From an uncultured Bacteroidales bacterium (GTDB lineage: Bacteria; Bacteroidota; Bacteroidia; Bacteroidales; Muribaculaceae), in contig CAMWLW010000015.1 of the NCBI GenBank assembly GCA_947175245.1, positions 1 to 41,012 of the forward strand: a DNA stretch of 41,012 nucleotides. The letters are read 5' to 3'. The notes below the pieces were generated by a model. That model had not been told where the DNA came from. It did no database searches and was given only the letters and a program-made list of their open reading frames with translations. Position 1 is the stretch's first letter, and every line of letters starts with the position of its first letter. Positions 1 to 4,106 of this stretch are shown piece by piece. The position numbers and the translations under genes were made by a program.

Positions 1-30
1 GTTATTTGGTTTTGTATCGATTAGCGACCG

Positions 31-61
31 CAAAGGTACGCATTATTTGTGAATTACCAAA
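31..61 (-). promoter_or_regulatory. Bacteroidota-type promoter firing out of the left edge
   Basis: Read on the minus strand, TTTG (58-61) is followed after 19 bases by TACCTTTG (31-38), an exact match to the Bacteroidota -33/-7 consensus TTTG-N19-TAnnTTTG. The start site would be near base 24, so the gene served lies outside the window to the left. Confidence 0.7.
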
Positions 62-152
62 CAAATTGCGCCTAAATTCCACAATATCACAATAAATTCA
101 GATAAAATTGCCTCCTGCCAGTGGCTCGGTCACTATCCCGGGTCGCAGATGA

Positions 153-187
153 ACAAAAATAAATCCCCGGCATCACACCGGAGATTT
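153..187 (-). terminator. Intrinsic terminator of the 230-427 gene
   Basis: Arms 161-170 and 178-187 pair over 10 positions with one mismatch around a 7-base loop. On the minus strand the stem is followed by a T-rich run (153-163). It lies about 40 bases past the stop of the minus-strand gene at 230-427. Confidence 0.6.
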
Positions 188-229
188 ACGATACATGTAT
201 GAGAAGCTGTTTTGGAATAATAAAGTAAT

Positions 230-427
230 TTATTCAATTAGCATAGACAAGGAAACAATGATAGCACCTATTACTAACATAATTAGTAAGGCCCAAAAGC
301 TTTGTGTGGTCTTGTTGCTTGAATATTTCGCCACCAATCTTTTGGCTATCGGATATCCAAAATAGAATACCCCTGAAAAGATTATCAATAGCCAAATCGG
401 TGTCGCGTCAGGATTTTGTGTAAACAT
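230..427 (-). CDS. Small two-helix membrane protein, function unknown
   Basis: This 65-residue protein has two hydrophobic segments, about residues 11-28 and 43-62, separated by a short basic stretch (AKRLVAKYSSNK). That pattern fits a small inner-membrane hairpin protein. I recognise no family. The ATG at 427 follows an A-rich untranslated stretch typical of Bacteroidota, a possible -7 box lies upstream at 479-486, and a T-tailed hairpin follows the stop. The flanking signals support a real monocistronic gene; the function is not known. Confidence 0.6.
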   Translation of the reverse strand: MFTQNPDATPIWLLIIFSGVFYFGYPIAKRLVAKYSSNKTTQSFWALLIMLVIGAIIVSLSMLIE

Positions 428-478
428 TATATTTTATGATTGTTTATATTCATATTCCGTTTGCCTTGTTTTGGCAGG

Positions 479-486
479 CAAAATTA
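479..486 (-). promoter_or_regulatory. Possible -7 box for the small membrane protein gene
   Basis: TAATTTTG on the minus strand matches TAnnTTTG. No clear TTTG is seen 19-21 bases upstream, so only the -7 element is supported. Confidence 0.35.
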
Positions 487-489
487 CTG

Positions 490-524
490 ACAATAAAAAT
501 AAAAACTCTCAACATTTGTTGAGA
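490..524 (-). terminator. Intrinsic terminator of the HxlR gene
   Basis: Arms 507-514 and 517-524 are perfectly complementary (the tip pairs must open to form the loop). On the minus strand they are followed by a strong T tract (490-505). The structure lies about 70 bases past the stop of the HxlR-family gene. Confidence 0.75.
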
Positions 525-591
525 CTCAAGGCTTTTAACACTTTTTGTTATATTTTTTTTCGACGGGCTTTCCGTATCTTTTCGTGAACAG

Positions 592-942
592 TTATTGGTC
601 ACGGTTATTGACGGCCCAATCTATGAGGTTGTAGAGTATGGGCATTAATGATCGACCTTTGTCGGTCAGCGAGTATTCGACTCTCGGTGGTATCTCGGCG
701 AACAGTTCTCGTTTGACTAAGCGCTCGTCTTCAAGTTTTTTGAGTGTAGATGTCAGTACTTTGGGCGAAATGTCGGGAATTGCCCGTGCGATTGAGTTAA
801 AGCGCGTAGTTTCGTTCTCGGATAAGACGCATAGAATAAGCATTGACCATTTACCTGTAAAATTTGATATAATGTTCCTTATGGGGCACTCTTCGATGCG
901 GGTATATTTTTCTAAATTTTCTTTTGTCTGCAATTTATTCAT
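592..942 (-). CDS. HxlR-family winged-helix transcriptional regulator
   Basis: This 116-residue protein has the HxlR (DUF24) layout: a conserved cysteine in the CP motif at residue 19, then FTGKWSMLILCVL, the recognition region PDISPKVLTSTLKKLEDE, and the wing ending VEYSLTDKGRSL. Family members are dimeric repressors or activators that often sense electrophile or disulfide stress through this cysteine. I place the start at the ATG at 942; a TTG two codons upstream is also possible. The gene is divergent from a cupin gene, and a perfect inverted repeat (953-970) lies just upstream, so autoregulation and control of the cupin are likely (inference). Confidence 0.9.
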   Translation of the reverse strand: MNKLQTKENLEKYTRIEECPIRNIISNFTGKWSMLILCVLSENETTRFNSIARAIPDISPKVLTSTLKKLEDERLVKRELFAEIPPRVEYSLTDKGRSLMPILYNLIDWAVNNRDQ

Positions 943-952
943 TTTCAATTAT

Positions 953-970
953 ACTTACCTGTGGGTAAGT
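953..970. promoter_or_regulatory. Probable HxlR operator (perfect inverted repeat)
   Basis: ACTTACC (953-959) and GGTAAGT (964-970) are perfect inverted arms separated by TGTG. The site sits in the divergent region between the regulator and the cupin gene, 10 bases upstream of the regulator's ATG. HxlR-family operators are commonly short palindromes of this type; assignment to this regulator is by position. Confidence 0.65.
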
Positions 971-990
971 GTCTTTCGGTTGTGTAACTT

Positions 991-1022
991 CTTGTTTATT
1001 GACAATCTAATTATTAATTTCG
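991..1022 (+). promoter_or_regulatory. Possible promoter of the cupin gene
   Basis: CTTG (991-994), a 20-base spacer and TAATTTCG (1015-1022) match the Bacteroidota consensus with one mismatch in each box. The HxlR operator lies about 20 bases upstream of the -33 box. Confidence 0.35.
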
Positions 1023-1052
1023 CGCTATCAATTTAATAGTAGCTATCTGCTG

Positions 1053-1060
1053 CAAAGTTA
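1053..1060 (-). promoter_or_regulatory. Possible -7 box of the HxlR gene
   Basis: TAACTTTG on the minus strand fits TAnnTTTG. No good -33 box is seen. It would give a leader of about 100 bases that contains the 953-970 inverted repeat. Confidence 0.4.
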
Positions 1061-1085
1061 ATAATAATATATAAAATTGAAAATT

Positions 1086-1496
1086 ATGAGCGAAATTAAG
1101 ATTCTTAACACTGGTGAGAAATTTGCCCATGCAACAGTGGGTGCTTTAACGACATTCGAAGGCAAGCAGTTTGTGAAGGATGCTACAGGTGCCACATCGT
1201 GTGAAATTTCTTTTGGCACACTCCCTTCGGGAGCTTCAGTACCATTCTTCCACAGCCACAAGGAGAATGAAGAAAATTACATCATTCTCTCGGGCGCCGG
1301 TAAGTTCCAGGTTAATGATCAGGTGTTTGATGTCGCTGAGGGTTCGGTAGTGCGCGTGGCTACTAACTGTGACCGCAATATTAAATGCACATCCGACAAG
1401 CCGCTCGTATATATCTGCATCCAGGCTAAGGAAGGCAGCCTTGGTGGTTACACCATGACCGATGCTGAAATAACCGAGCGCGAAAACTTACTCTAA
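1086..1496 (+). CDS. Cupin-domain protein with incomplete metal site
   Basis: This 136-residue single-cupin protein shows cupin motif 1 as HSHKENEENY (His56, His58, Glu62 or Glu63). In motif 2 (EGSVVRVATNCDRNI) the expected final histidine is replaced by Arg97, so a canonical four-ligand metal site is not complete. Possible roles are a small enzyme or a ligand-binding protein; the substrate is unknown. I chose the ATG at 1086 over an upstream TTG at 1077 because it gives a standard N-terminus. The gene is divergent from an HxlR regulator and ends at its own terminator, so it is probably that regulator's target (inference). Confidence 0.85.
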   Translation: MSEIKILNTGEKFAHATVGALTTFEGKQFVKDATGATSCEISFGTLPSGASVPFFHSHKENEENYIILSGAGKFQVNDQVFDVAEGSVVRVATNCDRNIKCTSDKPLVYICIQAKEGSLGGYTMTDAEITERENLL

Positions 1497-1517
1497 GGAA
1501 AGATTTACTCATTAGGC

Positions 1518-1560
1518 AACTGGCATGTTCTCATCGATGGCATGTCAGTTGTTTATTTTG
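1518..1560 (+). terminator. Intrinsic terminator of the cupin gene
   Basis: Arms 1518-1527 and 1541-1550 pair over 10 bases with one G-U, followed by the T-rich tail GTTTATTTTG. Confidence 0.75.
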
Positions 1561-1627
1561 TCAAGGCTCGTTCGCTTCACTTTTTATTGTAAACTTTCGA
1601 TTAATGGAATAAAAAAGTTCTTGATGA

Positions 1628-1659
1628 ATTGTATGTATCAAATAATGTAAGTATTTTTG
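1628..1659 (+). promoter_or_regulatory. Promoter upstream of a structured non-coding interval
   Basis: ATTG (1628-1631), a 20-base spacer and TATTTTTG (1652-1659) match the Bacteroidota promoter with one mismatch in the -33 box. Transcription would start near 1666, with no convincing gene before the terminator at 1922. Confidence 0.55.
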
Positions 1660-1665
1660 CAGTCA

Positions 1666-1922
1666 CATAACACTCGCGGTTTATTACCACGAGTAGCGAC
1701 ATATTTTGATGCGTTTATCGACGCTCATTTGACACATGGAAATCTGGAAAATTTCACTCGGAGTCAAATGTAGCAGTGATGGATGCCTTTCGTCAGTGTA
1801 TATCAATAGATATTCACATATCTTGCGTGAGGCTCTAACTGCTCGTTTCATTCCGAAAGGCATTCCAGAGCCTCCATGTGTGAGACGGGCAGGAGATACA
1901 GACTCTCACGCATTCTTTTTTT
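1666..1922 (+). ncRNA. Candidate structured RNA (sRNA or cis-regulatory leader)
   Basis: The 1497-1970 gap holds no convincing gene but has a promoter, a series of hairpins and a terminator. Stems seen: 1673-1679/1687-1693 (one mismatch); 1711-1714/1721-1724; 1726-1733/1763-1770 (8 perfect pairs, with an inner helix 1739-1743/1751-1755); 1796-1804/1809-1817 (one mismatch); 1829-1836/1867-1874 (8 perfect pairs); then terminator stem 1878-1885/1904-1911 followed by a T run. I do not recognise a known RNA class: I see no tmRNA, RNase P, SRP, TPP or cobalamin hallmark. The next gene starts 48 bases after the terminator, so it could be an independent small RNA of about 257 nt or an attenuating leader. 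A 62-codon reading frame at 1736-1924 cuts through the stems and is probably not translated. Confidence 0.5.
1878..1922 (+). terminator. Intrinsic terminator of the candidate RNA
   Basis: An 8-base stem with one G-U pair (1878-1885/1904-1911) is followed by ATTCTTTTTTT (1912-1922), a strong rho-independent signature. Confidence 0.75.
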
Positions 1923-1970
1923 AATCAATTAAATAGCCAACGAGGAGAGGACCGAGGCATACTTTGTGTT

Positions 1971-2450
1971 ATGAAAAGGTTGTCGTTCCTTTTATTGTTG
2001 GTACTTACTTGTACCGTGTTCGCTACTGAGGCGATTGCAGCTAAAAAAGTGGCTGTGTATGCCGAGGGTGAAATTCCTAATTCAACAAAATCCATCGTTT
2101 GTTCTTCGGTTCTTTCACGCCTTTCGGGTAATAAAGACTATAAGGCTTTTGAAAGAAATTCGGCATTTGTAAATGCGCTTGATAAAGAACAAGATTATCA
2201 GACATCGGGTGATGTTCCTGAAAAGGAGATTCGTGAGGTCGCACAGCGCATGGGGGTAGATTATGTTATTGTGGTTAATACAGTGATATCGGCTGATGAA
2301 CAATGTCATATGTCTGCGCGCTTGATTGATTTAGTAACAGGTGAGATTCTCAAGACCGTTAATCTCAAGCGCGAATACGCTGGTTCAGAGGCGATTACTT
2401 TGATGGCCAACAATCTTGCATATCGTCTGATAAATAATAACTCTAAATAA
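1971..2450 (+). CDS. Secreted CsgG/LpoB-like domain protein (paralogue 1)
   Basis: This 159-residue protein starts with a signal peptide (MKRLSFLLLLVLTCTVFA, cleavage near residue 23). The rest is one compact domain: KKVAVYAEGE, a helix with VLSRLSG, the segment KEQDYQTSGDV, then a VDYVIVVNTVISADEQ strand and SARLIDLVTGEI. This resembles the CsgG/LpoB/FlgO-like fold of envelope lipoproteins and activators (fold-level inference). It is a clear paralogue of the N-terminal domain of the next gene, which starts 7 bases after its stop, so both are probably cotranscribed and periplasmic. It follows the structured RNA and may be read through from it. Confidence 0.75.
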   Translation: MKRLSFLLLLVLTCTVFATEAIAAKKVAVYAEGEIPNSTKSIVCSSVLSRLSGNKDYKAFERNSAFVNALDKEQDYQTSGDVPEKEIREVAQRMGVDYVIVVNTVISADEQCHMSARLIDLVTGEILKTVNLKREYAGSEAITLMANNLAYRLINNNSK

Positions 2451-2457
2451 TACTTAT

Positions 2458-3456
2458 ATGAAAAGAACGATTGCTCGCTTATTGATTGTCTTGTTTTGCG
2501 GTATAATTATTAACGTGCCGTCATTTGCTCAAGACCGTGCTAAAAAGAAAGTCGCTGTATATATGACAGGCTCAACGTCTAACGAGGCATATAAAAAGGT
2601 TATTGGAGCTAAATTGGTTAGTGCAATAACTGAAAGTGGAGAGTATGCTGCAGTTGAAAGAACTGCCGATTTTTTAGCGGCATTATCAGCCGAAAGTGAT
2701 TATCAAACTTCGGGAGAGGTTCGTGACAGTCAGATAGCTCAGTTGGGCCAAAAATTTGGTGTTCGGTTTGTAGTTGTTGCAGATGTAAATGAGCTATTTG
2801 ATGAATGTTTTATTACTGCGCGAATGATAAATGTAGAATCAGGCCTTGTGGAACGTGCATATGATATTAATGGCGCGGCTGATTCGATGAATCAATTAAT
2901 ATCTCTATCACAAAAAGTGGCTAAAGGTTTATTAGGCGCTGGAGAATCCTTTAATAATTCGGATTTACAATCGACACCAACAAATATGTCGTTATGCGCC
3001 GTTAAAGGCGGAAAAGTCTTTTTTATTACTCCTTTACAATGGCAACAAATGCAAGAAGTTGAAAAGATTACATATAATAAGAAAGGTGTGTGCCTAATGG
3101 ATAATGGTAATATCATTATCATTGCCATGCAAGATAGTGGAAATGGTAATCAATATAAAGCAAGAGAACTAAAAGCTCCTACATTATTTCAGCTTAAAAT
3201 AATGTATAATAATTTAGTGGCATTAAATACTGCGTTGAGAATATTCGGTGGAGAACCATTAAATAATGAAAGTACTGGAGACGTTGGTTATGTAGCCTCG
3301 GATTATTCTACAGATGCGAGTAAAGGGTATCGGTTAGAAATGAGTAATGGAAATTATCGTGAGTCCACATGGAATGATTCATGGGTAGGAAATAGAATTA
3401 GAACTGTGTATAATTTGAATGAAATTATTCAAGAAGCTTCGATGATGTGGAAATAG
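2458..3456 (+). CDS. Secreted CsgG-like protein with extra C-terminal domain (paralogue 2)
   Basis: This 332-residue protein has a signal peptide (residues 1-24, ending SFAQ), then a CsgG/LpoB-like domain to about residue 165 that parallels the upstream gene (KKVAVYMTGS, ESDYQTSGEV, GVRFVVVADVNELFDE, TARMINVESG). The C-terminal half, about 175-332, is unrelated to paralogue 1. Its last 60 residues (GYVASDYSTD ... YRESTWNDSW ... NRIRTVYNL) weakly resemble the DUF1566/fibrobacter major-paralogous type of surface domain, which often ends with a conserved W and RVR segment. The 3' half is visibly more AT-rich than its neighbours, which suggests a separately acquired domain. Confidence 0.75.
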   Translation: MKRTIARLLIVLFCGIIINVPSFAQDRAKKKVAVYMTGSTSNEAYKKVIGAKLVSAITESGEYAAVERTADFLAALSAESDYQTSGEVRDSQIAQLGQKFGVRFVVVADVNELFDECFITARMINVESGLVERAYDINGAADSMNQLISLSQKVAKGLLGAGESFNNSDLQSTPTNMSLCAVKGGKVFFITPLQWQQMQEVEKITYNKKGVCLMDNGNIIIIAMQDSGNGNQYKARELKAPTLFQLKIMYNNLVALNTALRIFGGEPLNNESTGDVGYVASDYSTDASKGYRLEMSNGNYRESTWNDSWVGNRIRTVYNLNEIIQEASMMWK

Positions 3457-3491
3457 AAGAGTCGATTGTGAACGATTCTACAAATAATTCT

Positions 3492-3516
3492 ACTCCCTCG
3501 GGTAATCCGAGGGAGT
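3492..3516 (+). terminator. Perfect GC-rich hairpin after the CsgG-like pair
   Basis: Arms 3492-3501 and 3507-3516 form 10 perfect pairs around GTAAT. The T tail is weak (GTATATCTCC), so termination may be incomplete. It lies 36 bases past the stop codon. Confidence 0.6.
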
Positions 3517-3670
3517 GTATATCTCCAACGTCTTTCGTCGTAAATTTTGATTATATATAGTGGGTGGGGAGAACTTTATCGGGTGTAGGTTGTTGTATTA
3601 GTATAGTTGAAAGTCACGGCATGGTGCTGATGGCTGAAAAGAATTAATTAACTATTAAAAATTTACTACT

Positions 3671-3868
3671 ATGAAAGGATTAAACATTGCACTCGCTGTT
3701 GTAGCAGGCGCCGTTGCAGGTGCTGCTGTAGGTTTACTATTCGCCCCTCAGAAGGGTTCTGACACTCGCGCTCAGATTAAGGATTATCTTCGCAGCAAGG
3801 GTATCAAGCTGAAAAGAGGTGAACTCGAAGAGATTGTAGACGAGATTCAGGCCGAGATTGAAGGTTAA
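3671..3868 (+). CDS. YtxH-domain small membrane protein 1
   Basis: This 65-residue protein has an N-terminal glycine/alanine-rich membrane segment (about residues 5-24), the YtxH signature GLLFAPQKGSDTR at 21-33, and a charged helical tail. YtxH proteins are small membrane-anchored proteins linked to stress responses, with no defined biochemical activity. It is the first gene of a four-gene plus-strand set (3671-4846) and is closely followed by a paralogue. Confidence 0.8.
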   Translation: MKGLNIALAVVAGAVAGAAVGLLFAPQKGSDTRAQIKDYLRSKGIKLKRGELEEIVDEIQAEIEG

Positions 3869-3893
3869 TCGACAATAAAAAAATATTATAATT

Positions 3894-4106
3894 ATGTGTT
3901 ACAAGAGTTTGTTATATGCTTTCATCGGTGGTGCCGTTGTAGGCGCCGGTGCAGCATTGCTGTTCGCACCTAAGAAGGGTGAAGAACTTCGTGAACAAAT
4001 CAAGTCGATGTGTAAGAAGCACGGTTTGTGTAAAAACAAGGCTGAGGTCGAAGTTGACCGTCTGGTCGACGAGATTATCGCTTCGGTCTCGGTTGCTGAG
4101 AAATAA
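3894..4106 (+). CDS. YtxH-domain small membrane protein 2
   Basis: This 70-residue paralogue of the preceding protein has a membrane segment at about residues 7-25, then ALLFAPKKGEELREQIK, and a basic tail with three cysteines (Cys2, Cys39 and Cys46). It starts 25 bases after the first YtxH gene and is followed by a terminator-like hairpin, so this pair may be made in larger amounts than the two downstream genes. Confidence 0.8.
   Translation: MCYKSLLYAFIGGAVVGAGAALLFAPKKGEELREQIKSMCKKHGLCKNKAEVEVDRLVDEIIASVSVAEK

Follow-up and report, generated by a model that had tools for sequence, protein, structure and literature searches.

Structured leader RNAs that act in cis on accessory operons include put RNA of phage HK022 and EAR RNA of Bacillus, and we know of no sequence that either has in common with the RNA described here. 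Few RNA regulators are known in Muribaculaceae, Bacteroides and Prevotella, which are dominant in the gut. UpxY proteins reportedly keep transcription from ending prematurely in the leader that precedes upxY (PMC7819879), and the transcript map of B. thetaiotaomicron contains long 5' UTRs with no assigned role (PMC7366714). Inspection of the window, by which we mean the whole 41,012-nt stretch of Muribaculaceae DNA that was analyzed, reveals a structured RNA in the non-coding stretch that separates a cupin gene (1077-1496) from two genes for secreted CsgG-like proteins (1971-2450 and 2458-3456). Comparison with the sequences of its relatives makes it fairly likely that this RNA represents a new class of cis-acting, attenuator-like 5' leader, which would control an accessory gene 40-60 nt behind it.

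A recurrent structured RNA ahead of the CsgG-like genes

Coordinates below are those of the window, where R1 denotes a covariance model based on A1, a MAFFT alignment of 27 copies that was not fitted to structure.

1628-1659, + strand: Bacteroidales-type promoter by consensus match only, with ATTG (1628-1631), a 20 nt spacer and TATTTTTG (1652-1659), which matches TAnnTTTG
~1666, + strand: predicted transcription start, deduced from the promoter position
1666-1970, + strand: putative 5' leader of the gene at 1971, from sense-ORF distance statistics, with the start site deduced from the promoter
1672-1694, + strand: 5' hairpin ACTCGCGG..CCACGAGT, from folds and the sequences of copies
1698-1923, + strand: conserved family core, scoring 189 bits (E 3.7e-48) with R1, of whose 27 training sequences the window copy is one; the best other copies reach 278 bits
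1904-1922, + strand: 3' strand of a terminator-like stem plus U-run, the U-run itself at 1915-1922
1936-1958, + strand: second conserved hairpin GCCAACGAGGAGAGGACCGAGGC ahead of the start codon, with a purine-rich GAGGnGAG loop, identified by eye
1971-2450, + strand: gene 1 behind the leader, encoding a secreted CsgG-like protein of 159 aa
2458-3456, + strand: gene 2 of the same unit, encoding a secreted protein of 332 aa with a weak LpoB-like stretch

The 5' hairpin occupies the place of a larger 5' domain found in other copies, and the second hairpin is visible by eye in nearly all copies inspected. In other copies this second hairpin lies at +10 to +45, between the U-run and the start codon, and its loop reads, for example, GAGGUGAG or GGGAG. 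The GAGGUGA of the loop is complementary to the anti-Shine-Dalgarno sequence UCACCUC, which is unusual for Bacteroidetes. The 159-aa CsgG-like protein itself matches nothing in Pfam or NCBIfam.

Folding of the RNA at 1664-1924 yields -91.7 kcal/mol versus -61.5 +/- 4.6 kcal/mol for shuffled sequences, corresponding to a z score of -6.60 with none of 200 shuffles as good. Together with overwhelming covariation across 100 non-redundant copies, this bears out the structured RNA proposed in the initial annotation. Its statement that no known RNA class is recognizable also holds, where a scan with Rfam 15 gives no gathering-threshold match on the window, none on the RNA itself at E values up to 10, and nothing on the RNA itself in own-genome and related copies. 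A U6 identity was rejected, the one relative concerned scoring 18.6 bits, far under the 44-bit threshold. We found no published description of this RNA; earlier RNA surveys were incompletely covered, so a prior description is possible. Translation of the frame at 1736-1924, which had been named as grounds against an RNA, is likewise rejected, with ATG in 1 of 100 copies, no conservation of the frame and a core length that varies between 226 and 339 nt.

With at least 14 copies in its own genome and a family found across an order, the RNA is no longer the orphan it had been called. BLAST with the region returns two more own-genome copies and matches in 24 of 61 genomes, while R1 scores 14 own-genome copies as strong (E <1e-29) and three more as weak. 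Of the 147 nearly complete genomes sampled from the window's own family, 140 carry the RNA by R1, often with 5-13 copies among the 13 candidates scored. An order-level sample contains it in 38 of 148 genomes (35 of 145 outside the own family), and a phylum-wide sample returns the own genome and two weak matches only, indicating that the RNA hardly occurs elsewhere in the phylum. Full scoring of four genomes of other families gives 19, 17, 13 and 11 copies.

Named carriers recovered by pattern search are Bacteroides acidifaciens, Bacteroides sp. GM023, Phocaeicola oris, Prevotella denticola, Prevotella lacticifex, Hallella mizrahii, Xylanibacter rodentium and Paraprevotella xylaniphila, with further carriers among metagenome-assembled genomes (MAGs) of Muribaculaceae, Paludibacteraceae and Salinivirgaceae. 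These names point to Muribaculaceae as the own family and to Bacteroidales as the order. R1 confirmed all 16 of the pattern-search loci tested. Copies are present in the culturable strains Bacteroides acidifaciens DSM 15896 and Prevotella denticola NCTC13067. The RNA also occurs in MAGs labelled Pseudoflavonifractor and Clostridium (L190, L221), more likely through mis-binning of Bacteroidales contigs than through inter-phylum transfer. At one further locus, two copies stand back to back (L048:951-1193 on the - strand and 1501-1768 on the + strand), each facing outward to its own gene.

Covarying pairings and probable alternative folds

An unbiased scan of all column pairs of A1 recovers the main helices without a prior model. 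Pairing was also scored in A5, an alignment of 100 non-redundant copies (<90% identical) fitted to helices d, e and f.

1732-1740 (ACACAUGGA) with 1873-1881 (UCCAUGUGU), + strand: helix d, rod fold; 96.3% paired in A1 with double changes in 7 of 9 pairs, 99.8% in A5
1743-1749 (UCUGGAA) with 1863-1869 (UUCCAGA), + strand: helix e, rod fold; 97.8% and 88.5% in A1 for its two parts, 99.9% in A5
1759-1764 (CGGAGU) with 1850-1855, + strand: helix f, rod fold; 92.6% in A1 with double changes in 6 of 6 pairs, 99.2% in A5
1772-1776 (AGCAG, segment X) with 1839-1843 (CUGCU), + strand: rod fold; 98.5% in A1, 98% in A5
1711-1719 (GCGUUUAUC) with 1778-1786, + strand: helix b, local fold; 97.9% in A1, 97.4% in A5
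1728-1733 (UUUGAC) with 1763-1768 (GUCAAA), + strand: helix i, local fold; 92.6% in A1 with one-sided changes only, 93.5% in A5
1839-1848 (CUGCUCGUUU), + strand: segment C, which pairs with segment Y at 1883-1892 (helix g, local fold) or with X (rod fold)
1825-1832 (GCGUGAGG) with 1904-1911 (UCUCACGC), + strand: helix T, base of the terminator-like 3' hairpin; 93.3% in A5, 90.3% in A1

The covarying pairings of the family are mostly long-range, and the alignments support two largely exclusive folds, namely a long rod and a pair of local hairpins, the 3' one ending in the U-run. For the rod, 95.6% of cells in A1 are paired versus 36-44% when the pairing is slid, and both-sided changes occur in 27 of 43 pairs (188 such cells versus 19-37 slid). 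For the local fold, 95.2% of cells are paired versus 43-48% slid, where both-sided changes occur in 12 of 37 pairs (38 such cells versus 3-10 slid). Several segments have alternative partners: 1716-1719 pairs with 1895-1898 or 1778-1781, 1839-1843 with 1772-1776 or 1888-1892, and 1908-1911 with 1711-1714 or 1825-1828. The 5' strand of helix b, moreover, overlaps the rod partners 1706-1714/1908-1916 (94.9% paired) and 1716-1719/1895-1898 (98.1%). Largely exclusive pairings, terminator-like and antiterminator-like as in a transcription attenuator, are conserved by covariation in A1. G-U combinations at paired positions outnumber A-C combinations by 791 to 55, and selection therefore acts on the + strand RNA.

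Helix g, which is absent from model R1, is 99.2% paired over 10 bp in the 100 copies of A5 and has double changes in 7 of 10 pairs in A1. As far as the alignments indicate, support for the local fold depends mainly on helices g and b, and a single knotted fold may hold helices d, e, f and g at once, in place of an alternation. A pseudoknot GGCUCU/AGAGCC crossing helix g was a first idea, superseded by the unbiased covariation scan. The rod lies energetically below the local fold in 100 of 100 copies, with mean energies above the minimum of 0.4 kcal/mol for the rod and 17.8 kcal/mol for the local fold.

These pairings also refine the hairpins first drawn at this locus. The perfect stem at 1726-1733/1763-1770 is present, and its conserved part is helix i. 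The second perfect stem, 1829-1836/1867-1874, pairs perfectly here; across the family it is imperfect and only a minor alternative (A1 columns 219-225/267-273), and it was discarded as main structure. The terminator placed at 1878-1922 retains its U-run, where the last 16 nt of copies hold a mean of 8.9 T; a simple terminator scan lists no terminator at 1915-1922, because the conserved hairpin (1825-1832/1904-1911 with 1839-1848/1883-1892) has a large loop. This 3' hairpin loop measures 34 nt, unlike textbook terminators.

Other families, and with weak scores also the window's own genome, contain a compact form of ~180 nt. Inspected by eye, GCUCACGCC pairs with GGCGUGGGC, which alternatively pairs with UCCCACGC ahead of the U-run, and AAUAAG and AUAAG are rivals for CUUAUU; read in this way, the compact form shows the same logic of two segments competing for one partner. 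The RNAalifold structure of its alignment, A4, contains helices d and e plus a GCUCACGC/GCGUGGGC hairpin, with double changes in 16 of 26 pairs. At L310, L311, L312 and L108 (G228), contigs end ~200-290 nt upstream of the compact copy, and the near-identical sequence upstream of these copies points to a repeat there.

The RNA probably switches the downstream genes on or off. The 5' hairpin (1711-1786) would form first during transcription, the local fold being expected ahead of the rod, whose formation requires the half of the RNA that is made last. An energy ~18 kcal/mol above the minimum fits a fold that is favored early in transcription. The 3' hairpin (1825-1911) and the U-run would then act as an intrinsic terminator, leaving the gene off. 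Alternatively, the 5' half would capture the emerging 3' half through helices d, e and f (~22 bp), leading to a rod that would keep segments C and Y apart and allow polymerase to read into the gene, turning it on. The balance would be set by a signal common to all copies, for which a small ligand, a protein or polymerase speed are options. The rod, too, extends at its base into the U-run, which makes the assignment of the terminating fold a guess.

Genes behind the leader and competing explanations

Few of the 83 proteins behind leaders match a common family, seven carrying BspA-type repeats, and 57 of 96 downstream proteins look exported by a simple hydropathy rule. In named species, the genes behind the RNA include upxY (NF033644, 151 bits), GrpE/Hsp70 operons, a sulfatase-family protein and PEGA or Ig-like proteins. 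A role as defence-gene leader was rejected, where each PADLOC family listed corresponds to a single protein match, mostly in helicase-type families.

A riboswitch proper is a special case of the attenuator-leader explanation, and we entertain it tentatively. The core would be an aptamer for one order-wide metabolite or second messenger, and the two folds its bound and free states. The size of the RNA and its conserved unpaired residues (invariant columns) are consistent with an aptamer, as are the many copies per genome ahead of diverse, mostly exported proteins; second-messenger regulons have many leader copies per genome ahead of diverse genes. However, no downstream gene function points to a ligand, and base pairing accounts for most of the conservation.

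The RNA precedes upxY in three cases, lying 15 nt ahead of the gene in two Prevotellaceae and ~200 nt ahead in the third. UpxY is an attractive partner where upxY follows the RNA, because it is reported to prevent leader termination (PMC7819879). These cases, and the operons and exchangeable accessory genes found behind the RNA, would suit a processive antitermination leader resembling put or EAR RNA, one that modifies polymerase or recruits a NusG-like factor such that accessory operons are read through. We consider such a leader unlikely, as UpxY is not a general partner: 16 of 37 genomes, all RNA carriers, have no UpxY above the NF033644 cut-off, and UpxY was rejected as universal partner. 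The window's own genome has two UpxY in the same search.

The position of the RNA argues for an attenuator-like leader over a free-standing transcript. The promoter annotated at 1628-1659 fits the Bacteroidales pattern, and TAnnTTTG occurs upstream of 92 of 99 copies versus 6% expected from shuffles, mostly 50-70 or 90-100 nt ahead of the core. Between RNA and gene, the motif is absent from all 99 of the 60-nt segments that follow the RNA. In 95 of 99 copies, an ORF of 60 aa or more on the same strand begins no more than 300 nt behind the RNA, usually 40-60 nt downstream; 76 of 99 starts fall at 30-69 nt, compared with 9% for random positions and 2 of 35 for upstream divergent genes. Among own-genome loci, DNA similarity mostly covers the leader alone and extends to ~+40 beyond the U-run, just short of the start codon. 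With a single upstream promoter (consensus match only), none in the gap and a same-strand gene at a short, constant distance, the RNA is therefore best read as a 5' leader and not as a free-standing sRNA. An independent trans-acting sRNA with its own terminator and an incidental neighboring gene would account for the promoter, the U-run and the stable rod-like fold, but the gene distances, the promoterless gap and the similarity that continues past the U-run make it quite improbable. Of the two roles first offered for this RNA, the leader is thus favored, also by the conserved second hairpin; its proposed dedication to the CsgG-like pair is not upheld, since the genes vary by copy and are swapped in a sister species.

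That exchange belongs to a variable region:

100-3642, no strand assigned: accessory island, approximate, comprising an HxlR-type regulator, the cupin gene, the leader and the CsgG-like pair; missing from three congeners

In the three congeners, 110-220 nt separate the two island flanks (window 1-50 and 3643 onward), and the stretch ahead of prmA contains no leader in any of the five congeners examined. The sister species (G003) carries the leader at the same locus, with an identity per 60 nt of 97-100% across 1581-1940 compared with ~80% in the flanks, and wholly different genes stand behind it. The two leaders differ at three positions, of which 1888 and 1890 fall in helix g with pairing preserved. 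Given the exchange in the sister species and the absence from congeners, leader and genes are therefore accessory and turn over fast. The right flank of the variable island is stable and consists of two small paralogous YtxH-type genes ahead of prmA (3671-4106).

A mobile or exchangeable cassette, in which the leader would mainly be a recombination site for moving or swapping downstream genes, would explain the identity of the leader between sister species with diverged flanks and unrelated genes, the missing island and the many copies near contig ends. It is very improbable given compensatory changes and a G-U excess that reflect selection on a transcribed RNA, no recombinase or end repeat noticed around copies in a non-systematic look, and the lack of blastn hits for the window copy in phage and plasmid records, together with a single exact-pattern match in 2.9 million viral contigs; these last searches also led us to reject a phage or plasmid element.

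Significance and comparison with known systems

It is conceivable, although we hold this view loosely, that the leaders form a riboswitch-like class that subjects dozens of accessory Bacteroidales genes, unrelated and exchangeable, to a single shared signal, such that acquired genes join the regulon by landing behind a leader. If true, a leader present up to ~19 times per genome ahead of mostly exported accessory proteins would control one of the largest RNA-controlled gene sets of the order, and would offer a handle on the control of horizontally acquired surface genes in these gut bacteria. The copies in culturable strains make the family experimentally testable.

Among known RNAs, 6S RNA is alike in its long rod-like fold; in contrast to 6S RNA, this RNA has several to many copies per genome, a leader position and no Rfam match. 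DUF805 RNA (RF03081) is likewise a multi-copy cis-regulatory candidate RNA of Bacteroidales, but is 68 nt long and has another sequence and structure. In two cases, a DUF805 RNA follows a copy of the leader RNA at a distance of 37-39 nt. Among the DUF805 matches listed in 12 genomes, 41 of 43 are not in tandem with a listed copy of the leader RNA, and half of these genomes, the window's own included, have no DUF805 match. Identity with DUF805 RNA was rejected on the absence of an RF03081 match from the window and its genome, with two tandem cases only. One contig carries at least eight DUF805 RNA matches over ~32 kb at 0.4-23 kb spacing (G048:C350:8055-40043), an arrangement that resembles an array of leader or cassette repeats.

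The put and EAR RNAs are alike in being structured cis leaders on accessory operons, where antitermination by the present RNA is only conjectural. UpxY-dependent leaders of Bacteroides capsule operons provide a case of conditional leader termination ahead of accessory surface genes, and three copies of this RNA precede upxY; unlike those leaders, most copies have no upxY behind them and many carriers have no UpxY. Riboswitches combine an aptamer with a short expression platform, whereas the alternative fold here is a rod of two whole halves, and this RNA has neither a match to a known aptamer in Rfam nor a coherent gene set. With attenuators and riboswitches that use an intrinsic terminator, it nonetheless shares the leader position 40-60 nt ahead of the start codon and two competing folds, one of which is a stem followed by a U-run.
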